From the IMG/VR virus record IMGVR_UViG_3300037264_000423, positions 1-29,668 of that record: a stretch of 29,668 nucleotides of DNA; one strand, given 5' to 3'. The translations under genes were made by a program, and so were the position numbers. The stretch is from a virus. Within the stretch, counting starts at the first letter, position 1, and each line of letters opens with the position of its first letter. The notes below the pieces were generated by a model. It was given only the letters and a program-made list of their open reading frames with translations, did not search any database and was not told the origin of the DNA. Shown here piece after piece: positions 1 through 29,241 of the stretch.

Positions 1-199
1 GTGTTGGTTTTCATGTGATGTTTTTAGTTACGGAGCTTGTCTGGTTCAAGAACAACTAAATGGTTCCATTCGTTCTTGAAATTATGCTAGAAGATTAAGT
101 GACAAGTGAATTCGCACGCCTCCGCGTGCACACCACTTGGCGGTTAATCTTCGTATGCAGAATAGGACAAGTGACGTGCATCACATGAAAAACATACAC
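1..199. other. Branched inverted-repeat structure (candidate structured RNA or DNA element)
   Basis: No gene is visible here. The segment can fold into one branched structure. The closing helix pairs 8-20 with 179-191 (13 perfect base pairs), and is extended by 1-6 with 193-199 around a bulge. A second helix pairs 36-42 with 165-171. Inside it are two arms. Arm one is a 9-bp perfect hairpin, 45-53 with 72-80. Arm two pairs 90-98 with 144-152, then 103-108 with 134-139, and is capped by 114-119 with 124-129 around a CTCC loop. The order is that of a three-way junction. Which strand, if any, is transcribed is unknown, and the element starts at the window edge, so it may continue to the left. 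Confidence 0.6.
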
Positions 200-390: not shown

Positions 391-1046
391 GTAATAACAG
401 TGCACAGAGTATTATAAGGGGAATGATATTTGCGTAATATCTGGCAGTAATAACTTTAATATCTTTTTACGATGCTTGCATAGGGTCGTGAATCGTGTTG
501 GCACTAATCTGCCCGTCACTATTTTCGAATGCAGGAGAACAGGATGACTATGAGTCCCTGACTGTACTATCGTGATGATGAATGACGGTGATGGTATTGG
601 CGTCCACATGTAGTGCACCTCATCACTCAGTCCTTGACTCATTGTGCGTGTGCCTCATGTACTCTCCCTCACAAGACAAGGCACATAGCACACATGTCCA
701 TGCTCCCTGAGGCATCAGCTGCTTGGGTACGGTCATCGCGTCATGCAACATGGCCAGGGGGCCCGAAAATGACCGTACCTCAGTAGACACCATGTCATCC
801 ACCTAACTTCCTCGTTTCATGTCGCTTGCAGCAAGTAACTAGCAAGTGGGTAATGTGGAACAAGGTTCGCCCTCGCCAGGATTTCCGGCGGATATAATCG
901 GGCAACGATAACCTAATAACAGGGCCCTAAGTCGAGCGGAAGCAGTTGGTAGATAAGAACTTAGAGGGTATTGGCGTGCTAATTAGATACTTTCCCGCAA
1001 AAAAGATGTTTACATATACCATGCGACGTGATAGGATGGCACACAG
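391..1046. other. Non-coding leader with several stem-loops, no supported gene
   Basis: I find no convincing coding region in these 656 bases. Several inverted repeats can be seen: 540-543 and 546-549 with 553-556 and 557-560 (loop ATG); 649-655 with 679-685 (TGTGCCT/AGGCACA); 727-736 with 769-778 (10 perfect pairs, GTACGGTCAT/ATGACCGTAC), clasped further out by 707-710 with 780-783; and 926-932 with 959-964. The small terminase gene starts at its end, with AGGAT at 1033-1037 as ribosome binding site. The stretch may be a long untranslated leader, a packaging or terminal-repeat region, or a site of unannotated small RNAs. Confidence 0.4.
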
Positions 1047-3375: not shown

Positions 3376-4977
3376 ATGGAACCAGATCGCGTAACAGCTA
3401 TATCCGCAAAACTTTCTTTGATGAAGTCTTTGCGGTCGCCGTTTGAAAAGGATTGGAACGACATACGTGACTACGTTAGACCAATTACGTTGTCGTTCAA
3501 TCAACTGACCGGACAGTTTCAGAACCTGTATCCGGAAACAATGTATGATGGAACCGCACCACAAGCTCTTGAGGACTTGTCGGGAGCTCTTATGTCGTAC
3601 CTCACAAACCCAGCTGAGCGGTGGTTTGAGATACAAGTGCACGGAATGCAAACCAAGGACCCGCAGATTCTTGAGTGGCTTGATATAGTCACCGAGATTA
3701 TTTACGCACAGTATCAAGACCAAGATGTGAATCTGAATCCGACTCTTCACGAGGCGTATTTGGATATCGCTGGATTTGGTACGGCTTGTATCAGTCAAGA
3801 GTGGAATGCCGATAAGGGTTCGTTACTATTTAGTGCGAAACCTTTGGCTCTCTGCTTCTTCAGTGAGAACAACCAGGGTTACGTTGATACGTTGTATCGC
3901 GTAATGCATTGGACTCTTCGACAAGTGAAACAAGAGTTTGGTGGGGTACTTCCAAAGAAGTTGATGGAAATCAAGGACCAGGAAAAACTCATCGAAGTTG
4001 TTCATGCTGTTTATCCGAGAACTGACCGCATTTCAGGTCTTCTCACCAAGACGAATAAAGCATTCGCTTCGGTTTGGATAAGCAACACCACGATGGAAGT
4101 GCTGGAAGAGTCTGGTTATGACTCCTTCCCCTACCACGTTGGGCGTTGGACGAAACTGGCTGGTGAAATCTATGGTCGTGGTCCAGCTCGTAAATGTCTT
4201 CCTGACATCAAGATGTTGAACGCCATGGAGAAGACCCTGCTCAAGGCTGGTCAGAAGCAAGTTGACCCTCCGCTCGTGTTACGTAATGAGGGATTCATGC
4301 TTCCGATCAGAACGTCGCCTGGTTCCATTATCTTCAAGGAAGAGGAAGATGCGGCAATCACTCCATTGGAAATTCGTGGTAATCTTCCGTGGGGTGAGGA
4401 TAAAGCTCAACAGAAGCGTGAGTTCATTAACAAGTGTTTTTACGCTGACTTCATTCGTATGGAGAAGGAAAATGTCCAGATGACGGCGTACGAAGTCCAA
4501 GACCGTCGTGATGAGAAACTCAGGATGCTTGCTCCTATGTTGGGGCGTATGGTTGCTGAGTTGCTCTCTCCGATGATATCTCGGTCGTATCAGTTGCTGG
4601 CAACTCATAACAAGATACCTCCGGCTCCTCCTGCTATTGTTGGTAAGAGGTTGTCTGTTGGATACGTCTCTCCAGCTGCGAGAGCACAAATCGGTGCTAA
4701 GGCACTTCTCATCAGTCGATACCTCCAAGACTTGCTTCCGTTCGCTCAAGCTACTCCGGACATTCTTGATGCGATTGATATGGACAGTGTTGCTCAAGAA
4801 CTGGCCATCTGCCGAGGTGTACCTCGTGCAGTTCTTCGCACCAAGGAAGACATTGATGGTATTCGTGCTGGTAAACAAAGAGCTGCACAGATGCAACAAA
4901 TGACTGCTGTGGCTGAACCTGCCAGTAAGGCGATTAAGAATCTCGCCGATGCTGGTGCATTGGGAGGTATGCAATGA
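3376..4977 (+). CDS. Portal (head-to-tail connector) protein, T7 gp8 type
   Basis: This 533-residue protein forms the dodecameric ring at the capsid vertex through which DNA enters and leaves, and to which the terminase and tail bind. The N-terminus (LMKSLRSPFEKDWNDIRDYV) and the following stretch with TMYDGTAPQALEDLSGALMSYL and NPAERWFEI are typical of the podovirus head-tail connector family. The length matches T7 gp8 (about 536 residues). A segment near residues 350-400 with AYEVQDRRDEKLRMLAPMLGR is also characteristic. Its last four bases overlap the next gene. It is followed by scaffold and capsid genes in the usual T7-like order. Confidence 0.93.
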   Translation: MEPDRVTAISAKLSLMKSLRSPFEKDWNDIRDYVRPITLSFNQLTGQFQNLYPETMYDGTAPQALEDLSGALMSYLTNPAERWFEIQVHGMQTKDPQILEWLDIVTEIIYAQYQDQDVNLNPTLHEAYLDIAGFGTACISQEWNADKGSLLFSAKPLALCFFSENNQGYVDTLYRVMHWTLRQVKQEFGGVLPKKLMEIKDQEKLIEVVHAVYPRTDRISGLLTKTNKAFASVWISNTTMEVLEESGYDSFPYHVGRWTKLAGEIYGRGPARKCLPDIKMLNAMEKTLLKAGQKQVDPPLVLRNEGFMLPIRTSPGSIIFKEEEDAAITPLEIRGNLPWGEDKAQQKREFINKCFYADFIRMEKENVQMTAYEVQDRRDEKLRMLAPMLGRMVAELLSPMISRSYQLLATHNKIPPAPPAIVGKRLSVGYVSPAARAQIGAKALLISRYLQDLLPFAQATPDILDAIDMDSVAQELAICRGVPRAVLRTKEDIDGIRAGKQRAAQMQQMTAVAEPASKAIKNLADAGALGGMQ

Positions 4978-25292: not shown

Positions 25293-26810
25293 TCAGAACG
25301 GTTTTGCGTCTCCTATTTTCGGAACATCAAACTCGCTTGTTTGCTTATTGTTGAATTCCGGAATCATCAAGCAGTTAACGCCCTTGCCCTTGACGTTGAA
25401 GAATTTCTTTTCCGCTCCCATCTCCTTGATGTGCATGGCGATGTGGTTGAGTCGTAATAGCGTAAATTTCTGTCGCTCAAGATATGATAGGAAATCACGT
25501 ACACGGAAATAGTGGAATCCATTGTTTGTCCATGGTTTCCCAGCAAGCAGTTCATCGTGCGTCTTACCTTGAACTCTAGTAGTGCAGAAGTCTTCCAGGT
25601 GCTGGGTCAGCATTCCAATAGGTGTTGCTTCAGGCGGCACGTCTATTACCGTCACGTCCTCCATCAAACCCTGTATAAGTTCTTCCCAACCATCTCGCTT
25701 CATCATTGCTGGCATCAGGTTCATGACTTCCATGCAGCGACGTTGGAATGCGAGTTGATTCTGAAGTTCCTCGGTTGTGAGTTCGAGTCGTCCACCACCA
25801 TCGATATCAATGAACCACAATGGCGGACTGGTTGCGAGTTTTGTGAGTGACCCAAGTTTAGGTAAACCACTAGCACCACCGCCGATACCATATTTGCAGT
25901 GCCTACATTTCGGCATGTTACAGTATTGTGCAATCGGTGGTTGCTTGCACATGTACTCAAACGACTTTTTCTGCAACGACTTAATTACACCAAGAACCTC
26001 AGTTGTGGTAAGTGGCGGGTCCATGAACTTGGTATTCATTTCTTCAAGAAGATGCGGCCAACCATCGGGATTAACTTTTTGACAGTATACCCCAAGGTTA
26101 AACAACCCGTTATTCCTCGTGCCCTCTGGGAACCCCATCGCTGCGAGGTGGTTCAAGCATGGTGGTCCATCTGGTATGGCATCAATTGGCTTAATCGGGA
26201 AATTCGCTAAGTGAAGCGGACTAATGATTCTCGAATACGCTAACTTGATAAACTCTTCCAGGGACAGGGCTTCATTAGTTGGGCCATAAGCGTAACGTGT
26301 GGTCTTTGCGGAATTGAAGTATGGCATGTTAATCCACTGCCCGATATCGCCACGTTCAACGATAATCTTAGATTGCTTGGGAAAGATTTCGGAACCACCA
26401 AAGCCGAGTGCTGCGGCAAATTCCCTCAACTGCTTCTGCACTACGCCAGCGTCATGAAATTCAGTCAGGAACAAATACAAGTGAACACCGCCCGATTTCG
26501 TCCTGCAAGGAACTAGTGGGTAGTTACGTTTTATGATTACGCCATTAAGATCAGATACGTTAATCGGATAGATGTCAACGTCGATAACTCCGAATTTTAC
26601 TTGACTGTTCTCATTGATTGGAATAATCCCAAGACCCTGTTCTCCCTTGATATGTCGTAACCAGTGGTCATGCGTAACTTCTTTAACTATCGTTGCTGCT
26701 TTACCTTTAAGTTTTCCGCTGTCTTCTGGATTCAGGTCTTTTGAATAAATTCCGTGGGCTTTCTTGTAGCCCTCAAAGAGCGTCATTAAGTCCTGTAATA
26801 TGGGATGCAT
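25293..26810 (-). CDS. Archaeo-eukaryotic-type (AEP) DNA primase
   Basis: This 505-residue protein shows the AEP catalytic motifs: DVD in KFGVIDVDIYP (77-79, metal-binding acidic pair) and SGGVHLY (106-112, the nucleotide-contact G-x-H region), followed by GSEIFPKQ. A cysteine group, with MCKQPP and YCNMPKCRHCKYG, suggests a zinc- or iron-sulphur-binding element after the catalytic domain. It would lay down primers for phage replication. ATG 26810 has no ribosome binding site; ATG 26786 has AGGA four bases upstream but removes part of a helix before LFEGYKKAHG. I keep the longer form. A 114-base gap with two hairpins precedes it. Confidence 0.8.
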   Translation of the reverse strand: MHPILQDLMTLFEGYKKAHGIYSKDLNPEDSGKLKGKAATIVKEVTHDHWLRHIKGEQGLGIIPINENSQVKFGVIDVDIYPINVSDLNGVIIKRNYPLVPCRTKSGGVHLYLFLTEFHDAGVVQKQLREFAAALGFGGSEIFPKQSKIIVERGDIGQWINMPYFNSAKTTRYAYGPTNEALSLEEFIKLAYSRIISPLHLANFPIKPIDAIPDGPPCLNHLAAMGFPEGTRNNGLFNLGVYCQKVNPDGWPHLLEEMNTKFMDPPLTTTEVLGVIKSLQKKSFEYMCKQPPIAQYCNMPKCRHCKYGIGGGASGLPKLGSLTKLATSPPLWFIDIDGGGRLELTTEELQNQLAFQRRCMEVMNLMPAMMKRDGWEELIQGLMEDVTVIDVPPEATPIGMLTQHLEDFCTTRVQGKTHDELLAGKPWTNNGFHYFRVRDFLSYLERQKFTLLRLNHIAMHIKEMGAEKKFFNVKGKGVNCLMIPEFNNKQTSEFDVPKIGDAKPF

Positions 26811-28895: not shown

Positions 28896-29195
28896 TCAGC
28901 ACTCAAGACGGTTAATGATAATGTTGATGTCATTTGAAACCTGCTGCACTTGAACACGCGCCGTTTTTGTTCTTTCAGCAATCGGCGCAAGTTGACGCTC
29001 TGGGGCGCAGCATTTTTCCTCACACGGGCCTGTTCTTGTATGCTCAATCGCCATGACTGGCGTCAGTCTGTCCAACAGCACAGCAAGCAGCTTTCTCAGG
29101 TCATCTATGCTTGAATTAAGTGCATCTAGTTCTTGGTGGCATTGTTGCCGTTTGATTTCGGTTACTGGATTAGTTTGGTTTTGTTTTTGTTCCAT
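28896..29195 (-). CDS. Hypothetical coiled-coil protein with a cysteine cluster
   Basis: This 99-residue protein from ATG 29195 has AAAGGAA about ten bases upstream. An N-terminal charged helix (VTEIKRQQCHQELDALNSSIDDLRKLL split over two turns of heptads) suggests a coiled coil. A central GPCEEKCCAPERQ has three cysteines and may bind metal. A second helix, RVQVQQVSNDINIIINRL, closes the protein. No family is recognised. The longer open frame to 29477 is rejected because it overlaps the next gene and has no ribosome binding site. It sits 13 bases before the following gene. Confidence 0.6.
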   Translation of the reverse strand: MEQKQNQTNPVTEIKRQQCHQELDALNSSIDDLRKLLAVLLDRLTPVMAIEHTRTGPCEEKCCAPERQLAPIAERTKTARVQVQQVSNDINIIINRLEC

Positions 29196-29241
29196 GTTGT
29201 GTTGTTCCTTTGTGTTGTTGTTGACGTGATGCCCAACCATG

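Follow-up and report, generated by a model that had tools for sequence, protein, structure and literature searches.

A conserved branched fold, most likely a non-coding RNA, at the divergent junction of podovirus genomes and over the start of a small gene

Cis-antisense RNAs that lie over a start codon are known from type I systems of the SymR/symE kind. In plasmids, single-strand initiation sites and single-strand origins are represented by the ssi of RSF1010 and by sso, and in phage HK022 the put RNA consists of two simple stem-loops near a promoter. Two further points of reference are the packaging RNA of the phi29 type (Phage_pRNA, RF00044), whose partner ATPase packages DNA without a TerS, and the autoregulatory leaders of ribosomal-protein and phage RNA-binding genes. 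Here we describe a branched fold from an uncultivated phage that resembles each of these in part. Structured RNAs of phages and other viruses have been surveyed in print; among the papers searched, which did not include that survey, no description of the element was found.

The stretch analysed, referred to as the window, is the whole IMG/VR record IMGVR_UViG_3300037264_000423: 29,668 bases, linear and without end repeats, so that position 1 is a contig end. By gene content the genome is that of a podovirus-like phage. Its rightward genes encode the terminase large subunit (TerL, 1526-2878, + strand), which served as the query for relatives, a portal-type connector, a protease, the major head protein and tail proteins. 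A TerS-like gene (1047-1529, + strand) is recognised by its position and by alignment with relatives, and has no Pfam or PHROG match. After the rightward block follow leftward genes for SNF2- and UvrD-type helicases and an AEP-type primase. The primase (25293-26810, - strand), which lies beside the helicases, weakly matches the archaeo-eukaryotic primase domain found in TOTE conflict systems. Near the right contig end there is a short TTGTTCCATGTTGTG tandem repeat (29187-29219).

The element occupies positions 1-199 of the + strand, and its counterparts in relatives are about 180-230 nt long. All six helices proposed in the first-pass annotation are found in the minimum free energy (MFE) structure: a closing helix of 13 perfect pairs (8-20/179-191), which extends outward to 1-4/196-199 and thus to the contig end; a second helix with one G-U pair (36-42/165-171); and 45-53/72-80, 90-98/144-152, 103-108/134-139 and 114-119/124-129. 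Together they form P1-P2, a three-way junction and two arms, P3 and P4/P5. The left arm of P1 (1-21) overlaps, in relatives, the first codons of a leftward gene, orfL1, and is followed by TTTTTA in the internal loop J1 (21-26). A GGAGC loop motif and the left strand of P2 (35-42) make up positions 31-42. P3, with a variable loop, covers 45-80. The P4/P5 arm (82-160) contains TAGAAGATT (88-96), TGACA (101-105), the terminal hairpin (114-129), TTGGCG (137-142) and TCTTCG (148-153). The right strand of P2 and the right internal loop (GTGACGTG in the window, GTGAGCAG in most relatives) take up 164-177; the right arm of P1 (178-199) closes the fold.

Such nesting had been called unlikely by chance, and in 200 dinucleotide shuffles no sequence reached an equally good fold. 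The + strand RNA has an MFE of -78.1 kcal/mol, where shuffled sequences give -46.7 +/- 4.2 (z -7.40); with the same number of shuffles z is -7.22 for the - strand RNA and -9.59 with DNA parameters. A tRNA search of 1-199 found none. In Rfam, the window has no family match at the gathering threshold and only two unrelated chance matches at E <= 10; the copy in one relative, L002, likewise has no match.

The same fold is found in the same place in nine relatives, all uncultivated podoviruses with TerL 60-69% identical. The TerL search led to L002, L004 and L005, where the fold lies about 1.3-1.5 kb upstream of TerL and the left arm GTTTTCATGNNNNNTTTTTA is common to them; alignment of TerS added L231, L233, L236, L240 and L243. 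A DNA search with the short motif GTTTTCATGNNNNNTTTTTA returned 120 stretches, in which the real copies were those already known, and a search of viral and genome contigs for TAGAAGAT...TGACA...TGGCG gave no further copy. The record of L002 (IMGVR_UViG_3300005563_000050, also L402-L404) is listed as linear, with 42,974 bases, but represents a complete circular map, since both contig ends fall in one tail gene and sum to its full length. There the element stands at the point where a leftward replication operon and a rightward late operon diverge. Throughout this podovirus clade the fold sits at such a divergent junction, between leftward replication genes and rightward packaging and structural genes.

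In relatives the element is normally internal to the contig. An assembly artefact can be ruled out, as the fold occurs in nine relatives with differing sequence and several times well inside contigs. So can the terminal hairpin of a linear genome: the element is internal in L002, L004, L236 and L243. At the other end of the window no fold was found.

The topology is kept in all copies despite much sequence change, and in L240 and L231 the closing helix is built of other bases. This is the opposite of the case named beforehand as refuting the fold, in which sequence would be kept and pairing lost. RNAalifold on nine sequences gives 55 pairs, with compensatory changes in 41. A covariance model built on the nine recovers them and in addition L347, a copy outside its training set, with 70.4 bits and an E-value of 8.5e-14; the window scores 165.5 bits, as a member of the training set. 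In the ten-sequence model alignment 45 of the 55 pairs change on both sides, among them 17 of the 18 pairs of helix 1 (P1), and all six pairs of helix 4 (P3) covary. Paired cells make up 93.1% of the alignment against 66.5 +/- 1.3% after shuffling, and double-changed cells number 143 against 42.6 +/- 4.8; when the partner is slid by 1-3 columns pairing falls to 37-48%. Fitting the alignment to the structure favours the pairing counts, and the sample is ten sequences from one clade; the margin is still very large.

Against this variation a few parts are nearly constant. In the TGACA/TGGCG motif the G-C, C-G and A-U pairs are invariant and the U-G pair is found in nine of ten copies. The same goes for the GG of the three-way junction; TAGAAGAT and GGGAGC/GTGAGCAG are nearly constant in most copies. 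The covariance model that the first-pass annotation had proposed as a check thus reveals strong covariation in every one of the six helices, and its suggestion of a phage non-coding RNA gains support from this covariation, from the independent match to L347 and from the G-U asymmetry described below. From comparative sequence evidence, the fold at 1-199 is truly conserved and most likely an undescribed non-coding RNA.

Which strand is functional can be judged from the pairs that are tolerated. Read on the + strand, the pairing contains 35 G-U cells and a single A-C cell, A-C being what a G-U pair of the other strand becomes. Without three U-G-rich columns the ratio is 13 to 1. As a control for bias the structure was predicted without G-U on either strand; the ratio is then 8 to 1 (one-sided p about 0.02, in a small test). 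Further, the + strand is the more stable in nine of nine copies and also in L347, and the consensus energy is -62.2 kcal/mol for the + strand against -45.2 for the - strand. Because G-U falls on the + strand and this strand is more stable in all ten, the functional molecule is probably a + strand RNA, that is, from the terminase strand, with + strand single-stranded DNA as a possible alternative.

Positions 1-199 had been described as free of genes, which needs correcting: positions 3-14 encode, on the - strand, MKTN, the start of orfL1, cut here by the contig end and identified by its homologues in relatives. Directly left of the element, orfL1 runs leftward for 85-132 amino acids; it is complete in L002, L004, L005, L231, L233, L236, L240 and L243 and cut by the contig end in L347. 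In every copy its ATG lies within the closing helix P1. A matching ribosome-binding site, AAAAAGGA, is visible in L240 and L347, and for this reason the TTTTTA of J1 is best explained as the complement of the presumed orfL1 ribosome-binding site.

By tblastn, orfL1 is found in the nine loci that carry the element and in no relative without it, while the neighbouring orfL2 also occurs in relatives that lack the element (L006, L205). Both element and orfL1 are absent from L344/L232 (TerL 64%) and L006/L007 (61%), in a comparison made among relatives with TerL at least 60% identical and enough upstream sequence. The co-occurrence is a result of detection, in which an orfL1 below about 30% identity could be missed. 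Since orfL1 is detected only in fold-bearing loci, the RNA and orfL1 appear to form one linked module of two parts, placed where early and late genes diverge. Neither this co-occurrence nor the start codon in the closing helix figured in the first-pass annotation.

Two observations concern the neighbourhood. In L006, which has neither fold nor orfL1, nested direct and inverted repeats (TGAGATGTGGTCATG / CATGACCACATCTCA) are seen at 2316-2658, about where the element would be, and the same is true of L007. The leftward gene orfL2 (3530-4159, - strand, in L002) is conserved in relatives, and many of them have short leftward genes in which its C-terminal motif (TKQDPWRIFQYYRP) is seen again; orfL2 has no Pfam or PHROG match above threshold.

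Judged by its conservation in sequence, OrfL1 is a real protein, for which Pfam and PHROG gave no match. Its AlphaFold model is beta-beta-beta-alpha (pLDDT 80.8). Foldseek with this model found nothing significant; its weak PDB matches include several dsRNA-binding domains, so that a dsRNA-binding-like OrfL1 is only a hint.

Our preferred reading, to which we give a probability of about 35%, is that the + strand RNA acts on orfL1 as a structured antisense or partner RNA and, by controlling translation, sets the level of OrfL1 at the early-to-late switch. The RNA would be made from the strand opposite orfL1 and would then cover its ribosome-binding site and start codon. The conserved internal loops (GGGAGC/GUGAGCAG and UGACA/UGGCG) would form a protein-binding body, perhaps for OrfL1 itself, and RNA and orfL1 together would determine how much OrfL1 is made as transcription goes from early to late. 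The reading is favoured because it uses most of the facts: the covariation, the L347 match, the + strand asymmetry, the start codon in P1, the co-occurrence with orfL1 and the weak dsRBD-like matches. Counted against it are the lack of a recognised fold or family for OrfL1 in Pfam, PHROG and Foldseek, the possibility that the RNA lies over the start codon only because the genes are closely packed, and the outcome of a promoter search: a sigma-70 ranking at both edges of the element gave no consistent promoter on either side.

The promoter result bears equally on an explanation from the - strand, which is possible but rather unlikely. Transcripts would start to the right of the element, so that a leftward transcript would carry its complement as a structured 5' leader; P1 would keep the start codon of orfL1 locked up to the point at which the fold is opened or stabilised by a host factor or by a protein that may be OrfL1, as in the autoregulated leaders of ribosomal proteins. 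This fits the layout: the start codon is inside P1 in all copies with the ribosome-binding site in J1 or P1, fold and orfL1 co-occur, the - strand also folds well (z -7.2), and in L002 the - strand carries a good extended -10 promoter immediately to the right of the element. It does not fit the G-U pattern. The asymmetry between G-U and A-C is the opposite of that expected and the - strand is less stable in every copy; moreover, with its 14-26 pairs P1 seems too stable to act as a switch.

The + strand asymmetry would also fit a 5' RNA element of the late + strand operon, such as a put-like antitermination RNA or a processing signal, with its promoter left of the element. The position ahead of a rightward operon about 21 kb long suits this proposal. 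T7-like promoters were considered and rejected: some sites look alike, but a search of five relatives gave no single-subunit RNA polymerase (T7 control 1e-109); since no phage RNA polymerase was found, transcription is presumably by the host enzyme, which also agrees with it. However, no clear + strand promoter is seen to the left, a gap of 630-1150 nt, AT-rich and mostly non-coding, separates the element from the terminase, the fold differs from the two-hairpin put RNA, and the co-occurrence with orfL1 is left unexplained. We regard this explanation as improbable.

The gap contains a second conserved intergenic block (window 726-779; about 5307-5330 in L002 and 2822-2845 in L236), which reads ACATGGCC(C)AGGGGGCCC, followed in relatives by GACACCAACCCAC..TCTCTGG. 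In the window it lies within a perfect GGTACGGTCAT/ATGACCGTACC inverted repeat. It may be a pac site or what remains of a small gene whose frame is open in L006. More distant relatives have another conserved element (GCGCCAAGTCAGTSGWTCTGCGGGGG ... CGGCAAAAATCCG, then AGTATAGGGAAAA) about 450 nt upstream of TerL, with copies in L010 (5418-5545), L016 (5420-5545), L026 (889-1014) and others of the relatives L009-L027. It is found in 31 stretches of IMG/VR and its sequence is conserved. As a counterpart of the fold this element (GCGCCAAGTCAGTSGWTCTGCGG) was rejected: it has no covarying fold on either strand and is treated as separate.

Immediately to the right of the fold lies an AT-rich trough (250-399, 25% GC), a possible promoter or origin region, with TTGTAA (268-273), a palindrome (275-291) and TAATAAC repeats (383-389, 392-398). 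A trough of 19-28% GC adjoins the element in all ten copies, and TTGTAA with the palindrome and the TAATAAC repeats are present in most. Here the fold might act as single-stranded DNA at a replication origin, a hairpin recognised by a primase or initiator, with OrfL1 as a small initiator or binding protein. The trough, palindrome and repeats in relatives, the z of -9.6 with DNA parameters and the AEP-type primase among the leftward genes all point this way, and a co-inherited pair of protein and site would fit. Nearly conserved U-G pairs and tolerance of G-U on one strand are more typical of RNA, however, and the same gene layout is kept in relatives without the element. We regard an origin structure as unlikely too.

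About as improbable is a trans-acting sRNA or packaging-type RNA that is independent of orfL1 and does no more than overlap it, for which the compact fold, the conserved loops and the place next to the terminase genes can be cited, against the perfect co-occurrence with orfL1, the absence of an Rfam match and the presence of a TerS-like gene.

Going beyond the antisense or partner RNA of orfL1, we tentatively propose a new RNA-protein module. It would consist of a branched + strand RNA, about 190 nt long, and a divergently encoded small protein whose start codon lies in the closing helix. The protein would bind the RNA, and the pair might serve as an early/late switch, a counter-defence particle or a replication initiator. 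Structured RNAs this rich in covariation and with a near-invariant core usually have a definite job, and to our knowledge few have been described from lytic phages. The candidate protein partner and the constant arrangement around its start codon should make the function testable by one small construct. If such a control module does exist, the balance between early and late would be set here in a manner new for phages.

Among the described systems, Phage_pRNA is similar in size, in its closing helix of 5' and 3' ends, in its three-way junction with two arms and in its place near packaging genes, and the first-pass annotation had drawn this analogy. The tests made do not bear it out. The element has no match to any Rfam model including that of pRNA, and is linked to an unrelated small gene. 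Here a TerS-like reading frame stands beside TerL in the window, L002, L004 and L005, and the relatives of TerL are annotated as terminase large subunit. Further, pRNA has complementary left and right loops for ring assembly, whereas the P3 and P5 loops of the two copies inspected by eye are not complementary and show no 4-base match (AACTAAATGGTTCCATTC / CTCC in the window, CTCCCTAATCTTT / CTTC in L002). With the HK022 put RNA the element shares a position, as a structured phage RNA, upstream of long operons, but it is a closed three-way junction far from the operon. Like ssi and sso it appears to be a large, strand-specific hairpin structure beside an AT-rich, repeat-bearing region; unlike them it is a much larger three-way junction with RNA-like G-U pairs.

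The autoregulatory leaders are likewise structured RNAs around the start codon of a co-inherited small gene, and in all copies with flanking sequence the start codon or ribosome-binding site of orfL1 is inside the conserved fold. The evolutionary signal, however, is on the strand opposite the mRNA: pairing is not conserved on the orfL1 mRNA strand, and G-U is tolerated on the other. RNA binding by OrfL1 is, in addition, only putative. With the SymR/symE-like cis-antisense RNAs the element appears to share a place opposite a small gene and across that gene's ribosome-binding site and start codon; both layout and strand asymmetry would fit an RNA opposite the start codon of orfL1. It differs in a conserved fold that is far more elaborate and in that no consistent promoter was found at its edges; toxicity of OrfL1 would be hypothetical. 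Set beside these systems, the element appears as a candidate new RNA family and, together with orfL1, as a candidate RNA-protein module.
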